A stretch of DNA of 64,000 nucleotides, from the NCBI RefSeq assembly GCF_900141715.1, contig NZ_FQYK01000006.1:62001-126000 (forward strand), in the 5' to 3' direction. The notes under the pieces are model-generated. The model worked only from the letters and a program-made list of their open reading frames with translations, ran no database searches and was not told where the DNA came from. The position numbers were made by a program, and so were the translations under genes. Of the stretch, positions 59,162 to 64,000 are shown piece after piece (position 1 is the stretch's first letter; every line of letters begins with the position of its first letter). The stretch is from Algibacter luteus (GTDB lineage Bacteria; Bacteroidota; Bacteroidia; Flavobacteriales; Flavobacteriaceae).

Positions 59162-59521
59162 ATGGAAAAATTAACCAATAAGGAAGAGGAAATTATGCAC
59201 ATTTTATGGAAGTTAGAAAAGGCTTTTGTAAAAGATGTACTTGCAGAAATAAAAGATGACAAACCACATTATAACACGCTTTCTACAATTATTAGAAATT
59301 TAGAAGACAAAGGTTATGTGGCTTACAACGCTTATGGTAAAACACACCAGTACTACCCTATTGTGAAAAAAGAGGATTATAGAAAACGATTTATGAACAT
59401 GGCCATAGATAATTATTTTAATAATTCGTATAAAAATGTGGTGTCGTTTTTTGCTAAGGAAGAAAAAATAAGTGTTGAGGACTTAAAGGAGATTATTAAA
59501 CTAATTGAAAAAGAAGCCTAA
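59162..59521 (+). CDS. BlaI/MecI/CopY-family transcriptional repressor
   Basis: A 119-residue winged-helix protein: LTNKEEEIMHILWKLEKAFVKDVLAEI, then YNTLSTIIRNLEDKGYVAYNAYGKTHQYYPIV, the typical BlaI DNA-binding helix and wing (excerpts). It lies 2 nt before the M56 gene, the classic arrangement of a repressor cleaved or relieved by a membrane metallopeptidase. Its target operator is not obvious in the upstream gap. Confidence 0.92.
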   Translation: MEKLTNKEEEIMHILWKLEKAFVKDVLAEIKDDKPHYNTLSTIIRNLEDKGYVAYNAYGKTHQYYPIVKKEDYRKRFMNMAIDNYFNNSYKNVVSFFAKEEKISVEDLKEIIKLIEKEA

Positions 59522-59523
59522 TC

Positions 59524-61314
59524 ATGGAACATATTATTAAAGCCAGTGCCATTATAACTATATTATACTTGTTTTATAAACTACTGTTACAGCGAGAAAC
59601 ATTCTTTAAGTCTAACCGATGGTTTTTGTTAATAGGACTGTTAGTTGCTTTAACTTTACCTTTGATTGTTATTCCGGTATACGTTGAGTATACACCTGTT
59701 AATGTAACCAATTACGCTTTTATTGATGTTACGCCTGCCGCGACAGATTCGGGATTGAGCTTACTAGATTATACCATATTTGCCTATGTATTGGGGATGG
59801 TCTTGTTTTTTACGCGATTCTTAATTCAAATGTCTTCTTTAGCACGAGTTATAGCAGGAAATGACAAAGAGAAAATTGGCGAATACACTTTTGTGAAAAC
59901 AGCTGAGGACGTGTCTCCCTTCTCATTCTTTAATTGGATTGTTTACAATCCAGATCAATTTGATCAAGCAGAGTTAAATCAGATAATAGCACACGAAAAG
60001 GTTCATGCAAAACAATACCACAGTATTGATATTTTACTTACACATTTGGCATGTATTGCGCTTTGGTTTAATCCGTTTATATGGCTTTATACTAAAGATT
60101 TAAAACAAAATTTAGAGTTTTTAGCTGATCATGATACCGTTAATACTGCGGTATGCAAAAAAACGTATCAATATACCTTGCTTAAAACGAGTGTGCCAAC
60201 TCATCAATTGGCCTTAAGCAATAATTTCTATAATTCATTAATCAAAAAACGAATCGTTATGTTACAAAAAACAAAATCAAAAAACATTAAAAAAATTAAG
60301 TATGCCCTTGTTGTTCCTTTAATAGCTCTATTTCTTATGAGTTTTAATATGAAGGAAATTTATATTGAAAAGACAGAACCTGTTGTGAATATGATGCCCA
60401 ATACGATTCTAGGTAATTTAGAACCGTTTGAAACTTCAACTGCGCTTGGAAACGAAATGGTAACCGTTAAGCCATCCGTTATTAGCAATGGTATAGATGC
60501 ACGAAAAGAATTAGAAGTATTTATTATTACAAAAACCACAACCGATGCCGAATTAGATAAAATAGCGAAAACCGCCAAATCAAAAGGCGTTACATTAAAG
60601 TTTAAAGGTGTGAGTCGTAATGCAGAAGGTGAAATAACTGCCATTAAAATTGAAGCTTCTGGAAAAGACTCGAACGCCAATTTTAACTTAAACTCTGATG
60701 AAGCCATTGCACCTATTAAAATAGCTTTTGGTAAAAACGGGAAAAACATTTCTATTGGCAATGCAGATATTAAAAAAGAAATAATCTCTTATGTTATAAA
60801 AGATGGCGATACTGTTAGTCACAAAATTCGTAAAACAGGAAGTGGCACTAATGCTATTTTTATTTCTGATGAGGACGAAGTTTATGAATTAAATAATAAT
60901 TCTATTCATTTTATAACTAAAGATAAGGGAGAAAACACCTTTAAAAAACGCATTAAGGTTGTTGAAATTAACGAAAACAGTGATAAAGACGATATTATTG
61001 AAGTGATGGTAGATAATGACGACATCAATAAAGAAGAAGACATTATTATTGTTAAAGGCAATGAATCAAACGGGAAATCTTATAAAATAAAAACATTAGG
61101 AAAAGGTGAAGGTAAAAACAAGTTTGTTTTAAAAACTGAAGATGGTGAAGAACCTTTATACATTATTGATGGTAAAGTTGTAGATTCAAAAACGTTTAAA
61201 GCATTAGATAATGATGATATTAAAACTATAAACGTGATTAAAGGAGATTCCGCCATTAAAAAACATGGTAAACCGGCTGAACATGGTGTTGTTGAAATTA
61301 CTACCAAAAAATAA
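59524..61314 (+). CDS. BlaR1-like M56 metallopeptidase with TonB-plug-like C-terminal tail
   Basis: A 596-residue protein. Four membrane helices surround the cytoplasmic zinc protease, whose site is HEKVH (His157, Glu158, His161) in IIAHEKVHAKQYHSIDIL. A fourth helix lies near 260. A long extracytoplasmic region of beta strands follows. The last 55 residues (EEPLYIIDGKVVDSKTFKALD through IKTINVIKGDSAIKKHGKPAEHGVVEITTKK; excerpts) match the plug-domain sequence of TonB-dependent receptors. It probably senses an outside signal and relieves the BlaI repressor. A terminator follows. Confidence 0.9.
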   Translation: MEHIIKASAIITILYLFYKLLLQRETFFKSNRWFLLIGLLVALTLPLIVIPVYVEYTPVNVTNYAFIDVTPAATDSGLSLLDYTIFAYVLGMVLFFTRFLIQMSSLARVIAGNDKEKIGEYTFVKTAEDVSPFSFFNWIVYNPDQFDQAELNQIIAHEKVHAKQYHSIDILLTHLACIALWFNPFIWLYTKDLKQNLEFLADHDTVNTAVCKKTYQYTLLKTSVPTHQLALSNNFYNSLIKKRIVMLQKTKSKNIKKIKYALVVPLIALFLMSFNMKEIYIEKTEPVVNMMPNTILGNLEPFETSTALGNEMVTVKPSVISNGIDARKELEVFIITKTTTDAELDKIAKTAKSKGVTLKFKGVSRNAEGEITAIKIEASGKDSNANFNLNSDEAIAPIKIAFGKNGKNISIGNADIKKEIISYVIKDGDTVSHKIRKTGSGTNAIFISDEDEVYELNNNSIHFITKDKGENTFKKRIKVVEINENSDKDDIIEVMVDNDDINKEEDIIIVKGNESNGKSYKIKTLGKGEGKNKFVLKTEDGEEPLYIIDGKVVDSKTFKALDNDDIKTINVIKGDSAIKKHGKPAEHGVVEITTKK

Positions 61315-61338: not shown

Positions 61339-61366
61339 AAAGGCACTCCTACGAGTGTCTTTTTTT
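61339..61366 (+). terminator. Intrinsic terminator after the M56 gene
   Basis: AAAGGCACTC pairs with GAGTGTCTTT (one G-T pair) around a CTAC loop, then TTTTT, about 25 nt after the stop codon. Confidence 0.8.
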
Positions 61367-62064: not shown

Positions 62065-64000
62065 ATGGTTAAACATATTTATCCATTAATATTATTTTTA
62101 AGCTTCACCATAAACCTATTTGCTCAAGAAGAAGCCAAAATTGCTACCAAATTCGCTCAAGATGGTGCGCTTTATGCCACTGAAGCATCAAATTCTGAAA
62201 CTATTGCTGAATTTAAAGAGAACGAAAGATGTATCGTAACTAGCTACTTAGGCAGTTATACCTACAAAGTAAAATATAAAGACCTTGTTGGCTTTGTAAA
62301 AGATCAATATCTCTTTGTGAATGAGCAAATGATGGATTTATATTTCGATCATGAAGAAGCTCAAAGAATAAAAGCTATTGCCGAAAGGAAAGAAAGACAA
62401 AGAAAATTAGACGAAATAGCGAATAAAGCCAATGCAGAAAAAGCTTTAATCGAACAACGAAAGAAAGATTCTATTGCAGCAATTGAAGCTGAAGCCAATA
62501 GAATACTGATGGAGAAAAAACGTAATGACTCCATTGCTAAGGCTAAAGTTGAAGCTGAAAGACTTTTAGCCTTACAAAAACGTAACGACTCCATTGCAAA
62601 AGCGAAAGCCGAAGAAGAACGCCTGCGTTTAGTGCAAGCCAAAAAAGATTCTTTGGCCCGAGTAGCTTTAGAACAAAAAAGACTTCTAGAAGAAAAACGA
62701 AAACAAGATTCAATCGCTAAAGCAAAAGCGGAAGCCCAAGCTGAAGCTGAAAGACTTTTAGCCTTACAAAAACGTAACGACTCCATTGCAAAAGCTAAAG
62801 CCGAAGAAGAACGCCTGCGTTTAGAACAAGCCAAAAAAGATTCTTTGGCCCAAGTAGCTTTAGAACAAAAAAGACGATTAGAAGAAAAGCAGAAGCAAGA
62901 CTCTATCGCTAAAGCAAAAGCGGAAGCCCAAGCTGAAGCTGAAAGACTTTTAGCCTTACAAAAACGTAACGACTCCATTGCAAAAGCTAAAGCCGAAGAA
63001 GAACGCCTGCGTTTAGAACAAGCCAAAAAAGATTCTTTGGCCCAAGTAGCTTTAGAACAAAAAAGACGATTAGAAGAAAAGCAAAAGCAAGACTCTATCG
63101 TTAAAGCAAAAGCGGAAGCCCAAGCTGAAGTAGAAAGACTCCTTGCAATACAAAAACGTAACGACTCCATCGCAAAAGCTAAAGCCCAAGAAGAACGACT
63201 GCGTTTAGAACAAGCCAAAAAAGATTCTTTAGCCCGAGTAGCTTTAGAACAAAAAAGACTTTTAGAAGAAAAGAAAAAACAAGACTCTATCATTAAAGCA
63301 AAAGCTGATGCTCAAGCCGAAGCTGAAAGACTTTTAGCCATACAAAAACGTAACGACTCTATAGCTAAAGCGAAAGCCGAAGAAGAACGACTGCGTTTAG
63401 CGCAAGTCAAAAAAGATTCTTTAGCCCAAGTAGCTTTAGAACAAAAAAGACGATTAGAGGAAAAGCAAAAACAAGACTCTATCGCCAAAGCAAAAGCTGA
63501 GGCTCAAGCTGAAGCTGAAAGACTCCTTGCATTACAAAAACGTAACGACTCCATTGCAAAAGCTAAAGCCGAAGAAGAACGCCTGCGTTTAGAGCAAGCC
63601 AAAAAAGATTCTTTAGCCCAAGTAGCTTTAGAACAAAAAAGACTTTTAGAAGAAAAGCAAAAACAAGATTCTATCGCTAAAGCAAAAGCTAAGGCTCAAG
63701 CCGAAGCAGAAAGACTCCTTGCGTTGCAAAAACGTAACGACTCTATAATAAAAGCTAAAGCCGAAGAAGAACGCCTGCGTTTGGAACAAGCCAAAAAAGA
63801 TTCTATTGCCAAAGCTGAAGCAGAAGCAGAAAAGCTAATAGCACTGCGAAAACGAAACGACTCTATAATTAAAGCAGAAAAAGAAGCACAAGAGAAAGCA
63901 CTGGAGCTACTAAGAAAAAGAAACGACTCTGTTGCTAAAGTTCAAGCAGCACAAAAAGCATTGGACGAAAGAAAAAAGCAAGAAGCGATGGCCAAAGCTG
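62065..64000 (+). CDS. Exported coiled-coil protein with SH3-like head and 64-residue tandem repeats, partial
   Basis: The frame from ATG at 62065 is open to the window end (645 codons, no stop). A signal peptide ends at FAQE (about residue 21). Residues about 25-95 look like an SH3-type small beta domain (CIVTSYLGSYTYKVKYKDLVGFVKDQYL). From about residue 100 it is a charged helix rich in Ala, Lys, Glu, Arg and Gln. Residues 164-547 are six exact-period 64-residue repeats, each with NDSIAKAKAEEERLRLEQAKK, KDSLAQVALEQKR and QDSIAKAKAEAQAEAERLL. The Asp-Ser motif recurs about every 20-24 residues. Beyond that, shorter degenerate units continue. A rod-like periplasmic or surface spacer is inferred. 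No enzyme motif is seen. Confidence 0.88.
   Translation, partial: MVKHIYPLILFLSFTINLFAQEEAKIATKFAQDGALYATEASNSETIAEFKENERCIVTSYLGSYTYKVKYKDLVGFVKDQYLFVNEQMMDLYFDHEEAQRIKAIAERKERQRKLDEIANKANAEKALIEQRKKDSIAAIEAEANRILMEKKRNDSIAKAKVEAERLLALQKRNDSIAKAKAEEERLRLVQAKKDSLARVALEQKRLLEEKRKQDSIAKAKAEAQAEAERLLALQKRNDSIAKAKAEEERLRLEQAKKDSLAQVALEQKRRLEEKQKQDSIAKAKAEAQAEAERLLALQKRNDSIAKAKAEEERLRLEQAKKDSLAQVALEQKRRLEEKQKQDSIVKAKAEAQAEVERLLAIQKRNDSIAKAKAQEERLRLEQAKKDSLARVALEQKRLLEEKKKQDSIIKAKADAQAEAERLLAIQKRNDSIAKAKAEEERLRLAQVKKDSLAQVALEQKRRLEEKQKQDSIAKAKAEAQAEAERLLALQKRNDSIAKAKAEEERLRLEQAKKDSLAQVALEQKRLLEEKQKQDSIAKAKAKAQAEAERLLALQKRNDSIIKAKAEEERLRLEQAKKDSIAKAEAEAEKLIALRKRNDSIIKAEKEAQEKALELLRKRNDSVAKVQAAQKALDERKKQEAMAKA
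62554..63705 (+). repeat. Six in-frame 192-bp tandem repeats
   Basis: Units start at 62554, 62746, 62938, 63130, 63322 and 63514, exactly 192 bp apart. Units 2 (62746) and 3 (62938) differ at only two of 192 bases. The period equals 64 codons, so copy changes keep the frame. A shorter, more diverged unit follows from 63706. Confidence 0.95.

Follow-up and report, generated by a model that had tools for sequence, protein, structure and literature searches.

A repeat-built charged rod with mostly regularly spaced Asp-Ser-hydrophobic sequons in an exported protein of Algibacter luteus

Results

The rod gene and its tandem array

The window analysed in this study is a whole stretch of 64,000 nt from Algibacter luteus (GCF_900141715.1, contig NZ_FQYK01000006.1, positions 62,001-126,000 of the forward strand), and at its right end lies a gene encoding a rod-like protein (Table 1). 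The reading frame begins with the ATG at 62065 and stays open as far as the window end; when the same contig is read onward, the stop codon ends 794 bases beyond the window, and the product has 909 residues. The original prediction of six 192-bp units following each other inside one gene is confirmed by Tandem Repeats Finder, which reports a single array in the region, and by comparison of the units, which also upholds the near-identity claimed for units 2 and 3. Pairwise, the six units differ at 2 to 26 bases; the 192 bases after unit 6 differ from them at 49 to 58, hence the repeat is confined to the first part of that stretch. As for the Asp-Ser motif said to occur three times in each unit, the spacing of 20, 20 and 24 residues holds within the array and becomes irregular downstream of it, but the third motif is not always DSIA, since unit 3 has DSIV there and unit 4 has DSII. 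Contigs ending inside repeats are usual when assemblies meet them, and seven of the 57 related loci described below end with their contig inside the rod, so the copy number in A. luteus may be affected by misassembly.

Table 1. Features of the rod gene and its upstream flank, in window coordinates
Feature	Position	Strand	Basis
Terminator-like hairpin after the upstream M56-peptidase-like gene	61339..61362	+	Consensus match only
Rod-protein gene, cut by the window end (locus L003:2066-4795)	62065..64000	+	ORF reading, contig read onward
Signal peptide, about 20 residues, without lipobox Cys	62065..62124	+	Judged by eye; aligned in relatives
SH3b-type head, about residues 25-87	62137..62325	+	Limits transferred from the model of relative L050
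Charged rod, residues 99-767, extending 365 bases past the window	62359..64000	+	Counted here
Tandem array, period 192 bp, 6.6 copies, 91% matches	62546..63804	+	Tandem Repeats Finder
Unit 1 (64 residues)	62554..62745	+	Units cut at 62554
Unit 2 (differs from unit 3 at 2 of 192 bases)	62746..62937	+	Units cut at 62554
Unit 3	62938..63129	+	Units cut at 62554
Unit 4	63130..63321	+	Units cut at 62554
Unit 5	63322..63513	+	Units cut at 62554
Unit 6	63514..63705	+	Units cut at 62554
Partial unit 7, repeat degenerate thereafter	63706..63804	+	Tandem Repeats Finder, unit comparison

The hairpin upstream points to the rod gene being a separate transcription unit. By our own reading, window positions 59162-61314 hold a BlaI-like repressor adjoining an M56-type membrane peptidase whose C-terminal part resembles a TonB plug; relatives of this peptidase occur at five of 58 loci, which indicates no conserved link to the rod gene. 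More generally the gene neighbourhood is not conserved, and an operon partner was rejected as the commonest neighbour cluster is confined to 13 of the 58 loci. On the minus strand, an antisense open frame of 310 aa (62361-63293) runs through the array and is probably a by-product of repeat codon use.

Layout of the protein

From the N-terminus, the protein consists of a signal peptide, a bacterial SH3 head, a charged rod of 669 residues and a beta tail of 140 residues. The signal peptide, recognised by eye in the A. luteus protein as well as in its relatives, marks the protein as exported. Further repeats or a C-terminal anchor had been anticipated past the window end. The array is indeed followed by degenerate repeats and then by a C-terminal domain some 140 residues long, but neither an OmpA nor a type IX profile was found with Pfam and NCBIfam.

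The structure was modelled for a relative of 369 residues from Confluentibacter lentus (L050) together with 26 relatives. In this model (mean pLDDT 85), six strands at residues 25-78 are followed by one helix at 86-187, a low-confidence stretch at 183-227 and then the beta tail; the rod motifs at 147 and 179 lie within the helix, and the one at 210 lies in the low-confidence stretch. The best match of the modelled head is 6biq_A (Z 10.9, rmsd 1.6, 65 aligned residues), and its fold matches include the SH3 domains of NlpC/P60-type proteins, a phage endolysin and LytB. The head is therefore predicted to have the SH3b fold, which bears out the SH3-like head proposed earlier. The protein differs from these SH3b proteins in having no catalytic domain and in its scores for PF08239, which stay below the cut-off: five of 27 relatives give weak matches (best E 0.00089, 19.8 bits against a gathering cut-off of 27), and the A. 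luteus protein has none at E up to 1.

The tail, modelled alone from 57 sequences, reaches a mean pLDDT of 93, and its four Cys are invariant in all 57. Its clear first row in VIA-align is IalB, the Bartonella invasion-associated protein B (3dtd; 121 aligned residues, rmsd 3.5, Z 7.5, 5% identity), with the next row at 5.1; the Z under 8 may merely reflect a common arrangement. Foldseek gives E 0.037 for the same pair, and a search of the A. luteus genome with the IalB profile PF06776 gave one match, on another contig (E 1.61), and did not match the rod gene. Among the families listed by the fold search, IalB was thus set aside as the family of the tail and kept as a fold lead only. DUF6209 was likewise rejected, as it reaches E 0.16 in the A. 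luteus tail, below the cut-off.

Searched with the A. luteus protein, Pfam yields nothing above cut-off and NCBIfam matches no family at E up to 1, including any type IX C-terminal sorting-domain profile, models of which we take NCBIfam to contain. No PDB sequence matches the protein (E up to 0.01) or the tail profile (E up to 1). The family of the rod protein goes unnamed in these three libraries, and the earlier statement that no named family combines this head and repeat stands for the A. luteus protein and its relatives in Pfam and NCBIfam.

Distribution and relatives

Among 299 genomes of the bacterial family, 25 have the tail, A. luteus included. With part of the first-look candidates scored, the tail profile occurs in three of the 296 genomes searched in the order and in one of the 395 searched in the phylum, A. 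luteus being counted in both, and on these figures a wide distribution was rejected. A scan of named genomes gave 57 related loci, whose genera include Algibacter, Hyunsoonleella, Flavivirga, Flaviramulus, Mariniflexile, Tamlana, Wocania and Yeosuana. A plasmid collection gave no match, which speaks against plasmid carriage.

Several relatives depart from the common layout. In an uncultured Algibacter (isolate 4-491; L052:5005-6423), head, rod pieces and tail share one frame with two in-frame stops within the rod, so this gene is decayed or otherwise interrupted. In Mariniflexile maritimum (L066:5426-6423), head and tail lie in different frames, joined by a short sequon-free linker. Mariniflexile gromovii (L065) shows the order head-rod-head-rod-tail in a frame of 994 residues, where many D-S positions read E-A. 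Two small proteins bear the tail, one of 191 aa without SH3 head or rod (L086:5848-6423) and one with the tail within a 182-aa open frame (G681:C8:141566-141961), and they raise the possibility that the tail arose earlier as a unit of its own.

Turnover of the rod between species

Rod lengths were compared in 41 of 58 sequences (the 57 loci and the A. luteus protein); seven were left out as cut by a contig end (L045, L047, L051, L054, L059, L083, L084) and ten for want of a head anchor (L046, L052, L066, L068, L069, L076, L081, L082, L085, L086). Length ranges from 132 to 872 residues with a median of 451, and the strongest repeat lag depends on the species, with examples of 20, 34, 38, 54, 60, 64 and 67. 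In seven species pairs whose tails are at least 85% identical, the rods differ in length in six, by 40 to 474 residues, and are equal in one; as one genome per species was compared, these are differences between species.

Within the A. luteus array the units are 88-98% identical at the protein level, against at most 58% identity between a unit and any 64-residue stretch in the rods of 40 relatives. The array must therefore have arisen, or been homogenised, after the split from the relatives compared, which supports the original proposal of recent local duplication or homogenisation. These data suggest that repeat turnover may change the rod length quickly while a single three-residue motif stays.

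Physical character of the rod

The A. luteus rod is 44% charged and holds 220 attractive i/i+3 and i/i+4 charge pairs where shuffled sequences give 125.7 +/- 9.2; its repulsive pairs number 25. Hydrophobic occupancy of heptad positions a and d is 0.566 against 0.586 shuffled with Ala counted, and 0.370 against 0.359 without Ala; since by this coarse test the occupancy is not clearly over the shuffled one, a coiled coil is disfavoured. By such coarse tests a single alpha-helix accounts for the rod better than a coiled coil does, and the L050 model together with the A. luteus composition supports the helical rod proposed earlier. The class that it resembles is presumably that of the single alpha-helix (ER/K) domains, with which it shares high charge, attractive i/i+3 and i/i+4 pairs and perhaps the absence of a clear heptad, and from which it differs by its regular D-S-hydrophobic motifs. 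TolA domain II is another long charged helical envelope linker; unlike TolA, the A. luteus protein has no TolA profile match in NCBIfam, and the rod length is not conserved. TIGR02794 (TolA) matches two of 27 relatives (best E 2.4e-5), which we read as charged-helix likeness.

An alpha-helix rises 1.5 A per residue, so that 669 residues would extend over about 100 nm. The periplasm is narrower than 100 nm, which makes a straight rod crossing it unlikely; the A. luteus rod would rather lie along the wall, bend, or sit outside. Given the range of 132 to 872 residues in the 41 rods, a fixed-length ruler spanning the periplasm was rejected; of the earlier idea that unit number sets the reach of a surface or periplasmic structure, a fixed periplasmic reach is doubtful.

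Constraint on the Asp-Ser motif

In 40 rods, i.e. the above set with L036 additionally left out for a run of N, each sequon was compared codon by codon with the position one repeat lag away. Between neighbouring units the amino acid changed at 3.9% of D, 5.3% of S and 12.3% of the next residues, against 15.8-29.5% at 21 other offsets from -10 to +13, where the bootstrap resamples rods, not phylogenetic events, and the units are not independent because the arrays are homogenised. Looser rod limits, which restore all left-out rods but L052, L066, L085 and L086 (54 rods, 50 contributing), had the same outcome: 4.2% at D, 6.5% at S and 11.6% at the third residue, with 19.5-28.0% at 13 further offsets. 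In the 40 rods, amino-acid and synonymous changes stand at 11:49 for D and 15:64 for S, against an amino-acid share of 44-68% among all changes at the 21 other offsets.

As a control for the choice of sites by motif, we ranked all dipeptides with at least 60 sites in at least 15 rods. D-S changes least among the 47 that qualify (4.6%, the median being 20%), and the three ranked directly after it, S-I, Q-D and L-D, share letters with it. In addition, 524 of 699 D in the 41 rods are followed by S or T, against 107 of 3109 E, with Glu over four times commoner than Asp.

The constraint is centred on D and S and extends in part to the hydrophobic residue that follows. Its footprint is that of the three-residue O-glycosylation sequon of Bacteroidota, with D first, S or T second and usually L, I, V, T, A, S or M third, which according to the available part of PMC12871550 is used phylum-wide in non-cytoplasmic proteins; Prevotella intermedia is described as preferring DS(L/I/V) (PMC10897501, in part). 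The original prediction had missed that its Asp-Ser-hydrophobic motif is this sequon and the most constrained part of the unit.

Sequon counts within and outside the rods

The A. luteus rod holds 27 D-S-hydrophobic sequons, 24 of them inside the window, where 0.6 would be expected from composition, and the 41 rods together hold 512 against 13.6 expected. D-T occurs 5 times in the 41 rods against about 517 D-S, and this near-absence of a form that the system allows, and for which Thr ought to serve almost as well as Ser, counts against the glycosylation reading. Ala follows the Ser of D-S just twice, although the system allows it as well; in the neighbouring unit, a sequon Ser is matched by Ala in 11 cases and by Thr in one.

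Five long rods from three Mariniflexile and two Algibacter records (L036, L037, L065, L067, L073) contain one to five sequons each, and in L066, L081 and L086 sequons are absent in the frame read. In Mariniflexile rods Ile is often kept where D-S reads E-A or A-A, which fits a removable modification site and also shows the motif to be dispensable.

In a sample of exported proteins chosen by a home-made export rule (111 small, 51 large), the full sequon is not enriched, which also counts against the glycosylation reading: the small proteins have 77 against 69.2 expected, the large ones 80 against 131.1, and the counts of a smaller sample agree. For D-S-[ILV], the exported small proteins have 47 against 21.3 expected, the exported large ones 24 against 38.6 and the cytosolic small ones 52 against 51.7; D-A-[ILV] is likewise raised in the exported small proteins (35 against 18.0). 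The sequon as a general trait of exported helix-rich segments was rejected, there being 4 against 2.8 expected outside the rod-protein family and 3 against 4.4 in cytosolic ones.

Discussion

Observed in the sequences are the anatomy of the protein, the turnover of its repeats between species and the constraint on D-S; from these we infer glycosylation, place in the envelope and function. We prefer, with modestly better than even credence, an interpretation in which, in the cell envelope, an SH3b head and a beta tail are joined by a helical rod that can be extended and that offers 27 candidate sites for O-glycans. The product would be a non-lipidated exported envelope protein, whose charged alpha-helical rod, probably a single helix, would link the SH3b head to the beta tail with its four invariant Cys. 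Gain or loss of in-frame DNA units would lengthen or shorten the rod, and as each A. luteus unit bears three sequons, one added unit would bring three glycan sites and about 10 nm of helix. The serines of D-S-hydrophobic would be glycosylated by the general O-glycosylation system of Bacteroidota, the head would bind peptidoglycan, and the whole may serve, in the periplasm or at the outer membrane, as a spacer or filler studded with glycans. The wider proposal of a genetically extendable glycan scaffold, in which repeat duplication sets the number of O-glycans regularly spaced along the helix and rods of differing repeat length share little besides the selected sequon, is more tentative, and we put its chance a little under even.

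Like known substrates of O-glycosylation in Bacteroidota, the A. luteus protein is exported and carries D-S-[I/L/V], the commonest accepted form; unlike them, its sites are candidates, and 27 of them occur in one rod with mostly regular spacing. In Bacteroides a glycosylation locus lies at metG, as stated in the available part of PMC12871550; in our own reading, no wzx or glycosyltransferase genes occur within 17 kb on one side of metG. A literature search on O-glycosylation with tandem repeats in Bacteroidota found nothing related, and the accessible portions of the literature on O-glycosylation in this phylum make no mention of a comparable sequon-bearing rod.

The most serious alternative, in our view unlikely but worth about one part of belief to three of doubt, is that D-S-hydrophobic acts as an unglycosylated contact point where the helix meets a partner protein or a metal or keeps its register, with the rod as a plain mechanical spacer. 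It would explain why Ile follows the Ser in 433 of 517 cases in the 41 rods, though Leu exceeds Ile in the A. luteus rod (78 against 34), and why change from S to T is nearly absent where a glycosylation motif should tolerate more. On the other hand, the constraint is at background again at -1, +3 and +4, and the motif spacing varies widely, with peaks at 19-21, 27, 29-36 and 40 residues, a variation hard to reconcile with a fixed partner or register. This alternative is also opposed by another exported protein from the same bacterial family (L111:151-3180), whose front part is PorP/SprF-like by our own reading: it contains a very long run of the ten-residue charged repeat AEQDRLAREK, in which D-S is absent, so charged repeat rods do not require the motif.

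It is improbable that the protein is a periscope-type surface projector, whose rod would hold the SH3 head or the tail off the cell surface with its length tuning the exposure. Its highly identical tandem repeats in a stalk, the latter resting on model and composition, its change of rod length between close species and its folded end domains recall periscope proteins (PMC8201768, available part) such as SasG, Rib and Sgo_0707. In those three, however, the rod is a row of folded domains, unlike the charged helix of the A. luteus protein, for which no surface anchor is seen: there is no lipobox, and neither Pfam nor NCBIfam yields an anchor profile, be it type IX, OmpA or another; bacterial SH3 domains moreover, as known for the family, commonly bind the cell wall. 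Least credible of all is neutral inheritance, in which array homogenisation would carry along a functionless motif and length would vary neutrally, for although the A. luteus array is private among the relatives compared and the motif is largely gone from five long rods, synonymous changes exceed amino-acid changes at D (49 to 11) and S (64 to 15) against 44-68% amino-acid changes elsewhere, and D-S ranks first of 47 dipeptides in conservation, so that codon test and dipeptide ranking already disfavour it.

If the glycan-bearing rod is accepted as the working interpretation, its use is practical. The available part of PMC12871550 describes the function of the Bacteroidota O-glycosylation system as largely unknown, and a mostly sequon-bearing rod whose natural relatives have lost most sequons would offer a direct handle on it, as it would allow comparisons in which head and tail stay the same while glycan sites are present or absent and the rod takes many lengths.

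The motif also occurs in much shorter segments. Short charged connectors between head and tail already bear D-S-L or D-S-I, once in L085 and four times in L028. Moreover, a lipoprotein-like protein with a SPOR-like end by our own reading (L112) carries D-S-L and D-S-V in a short charged linker.
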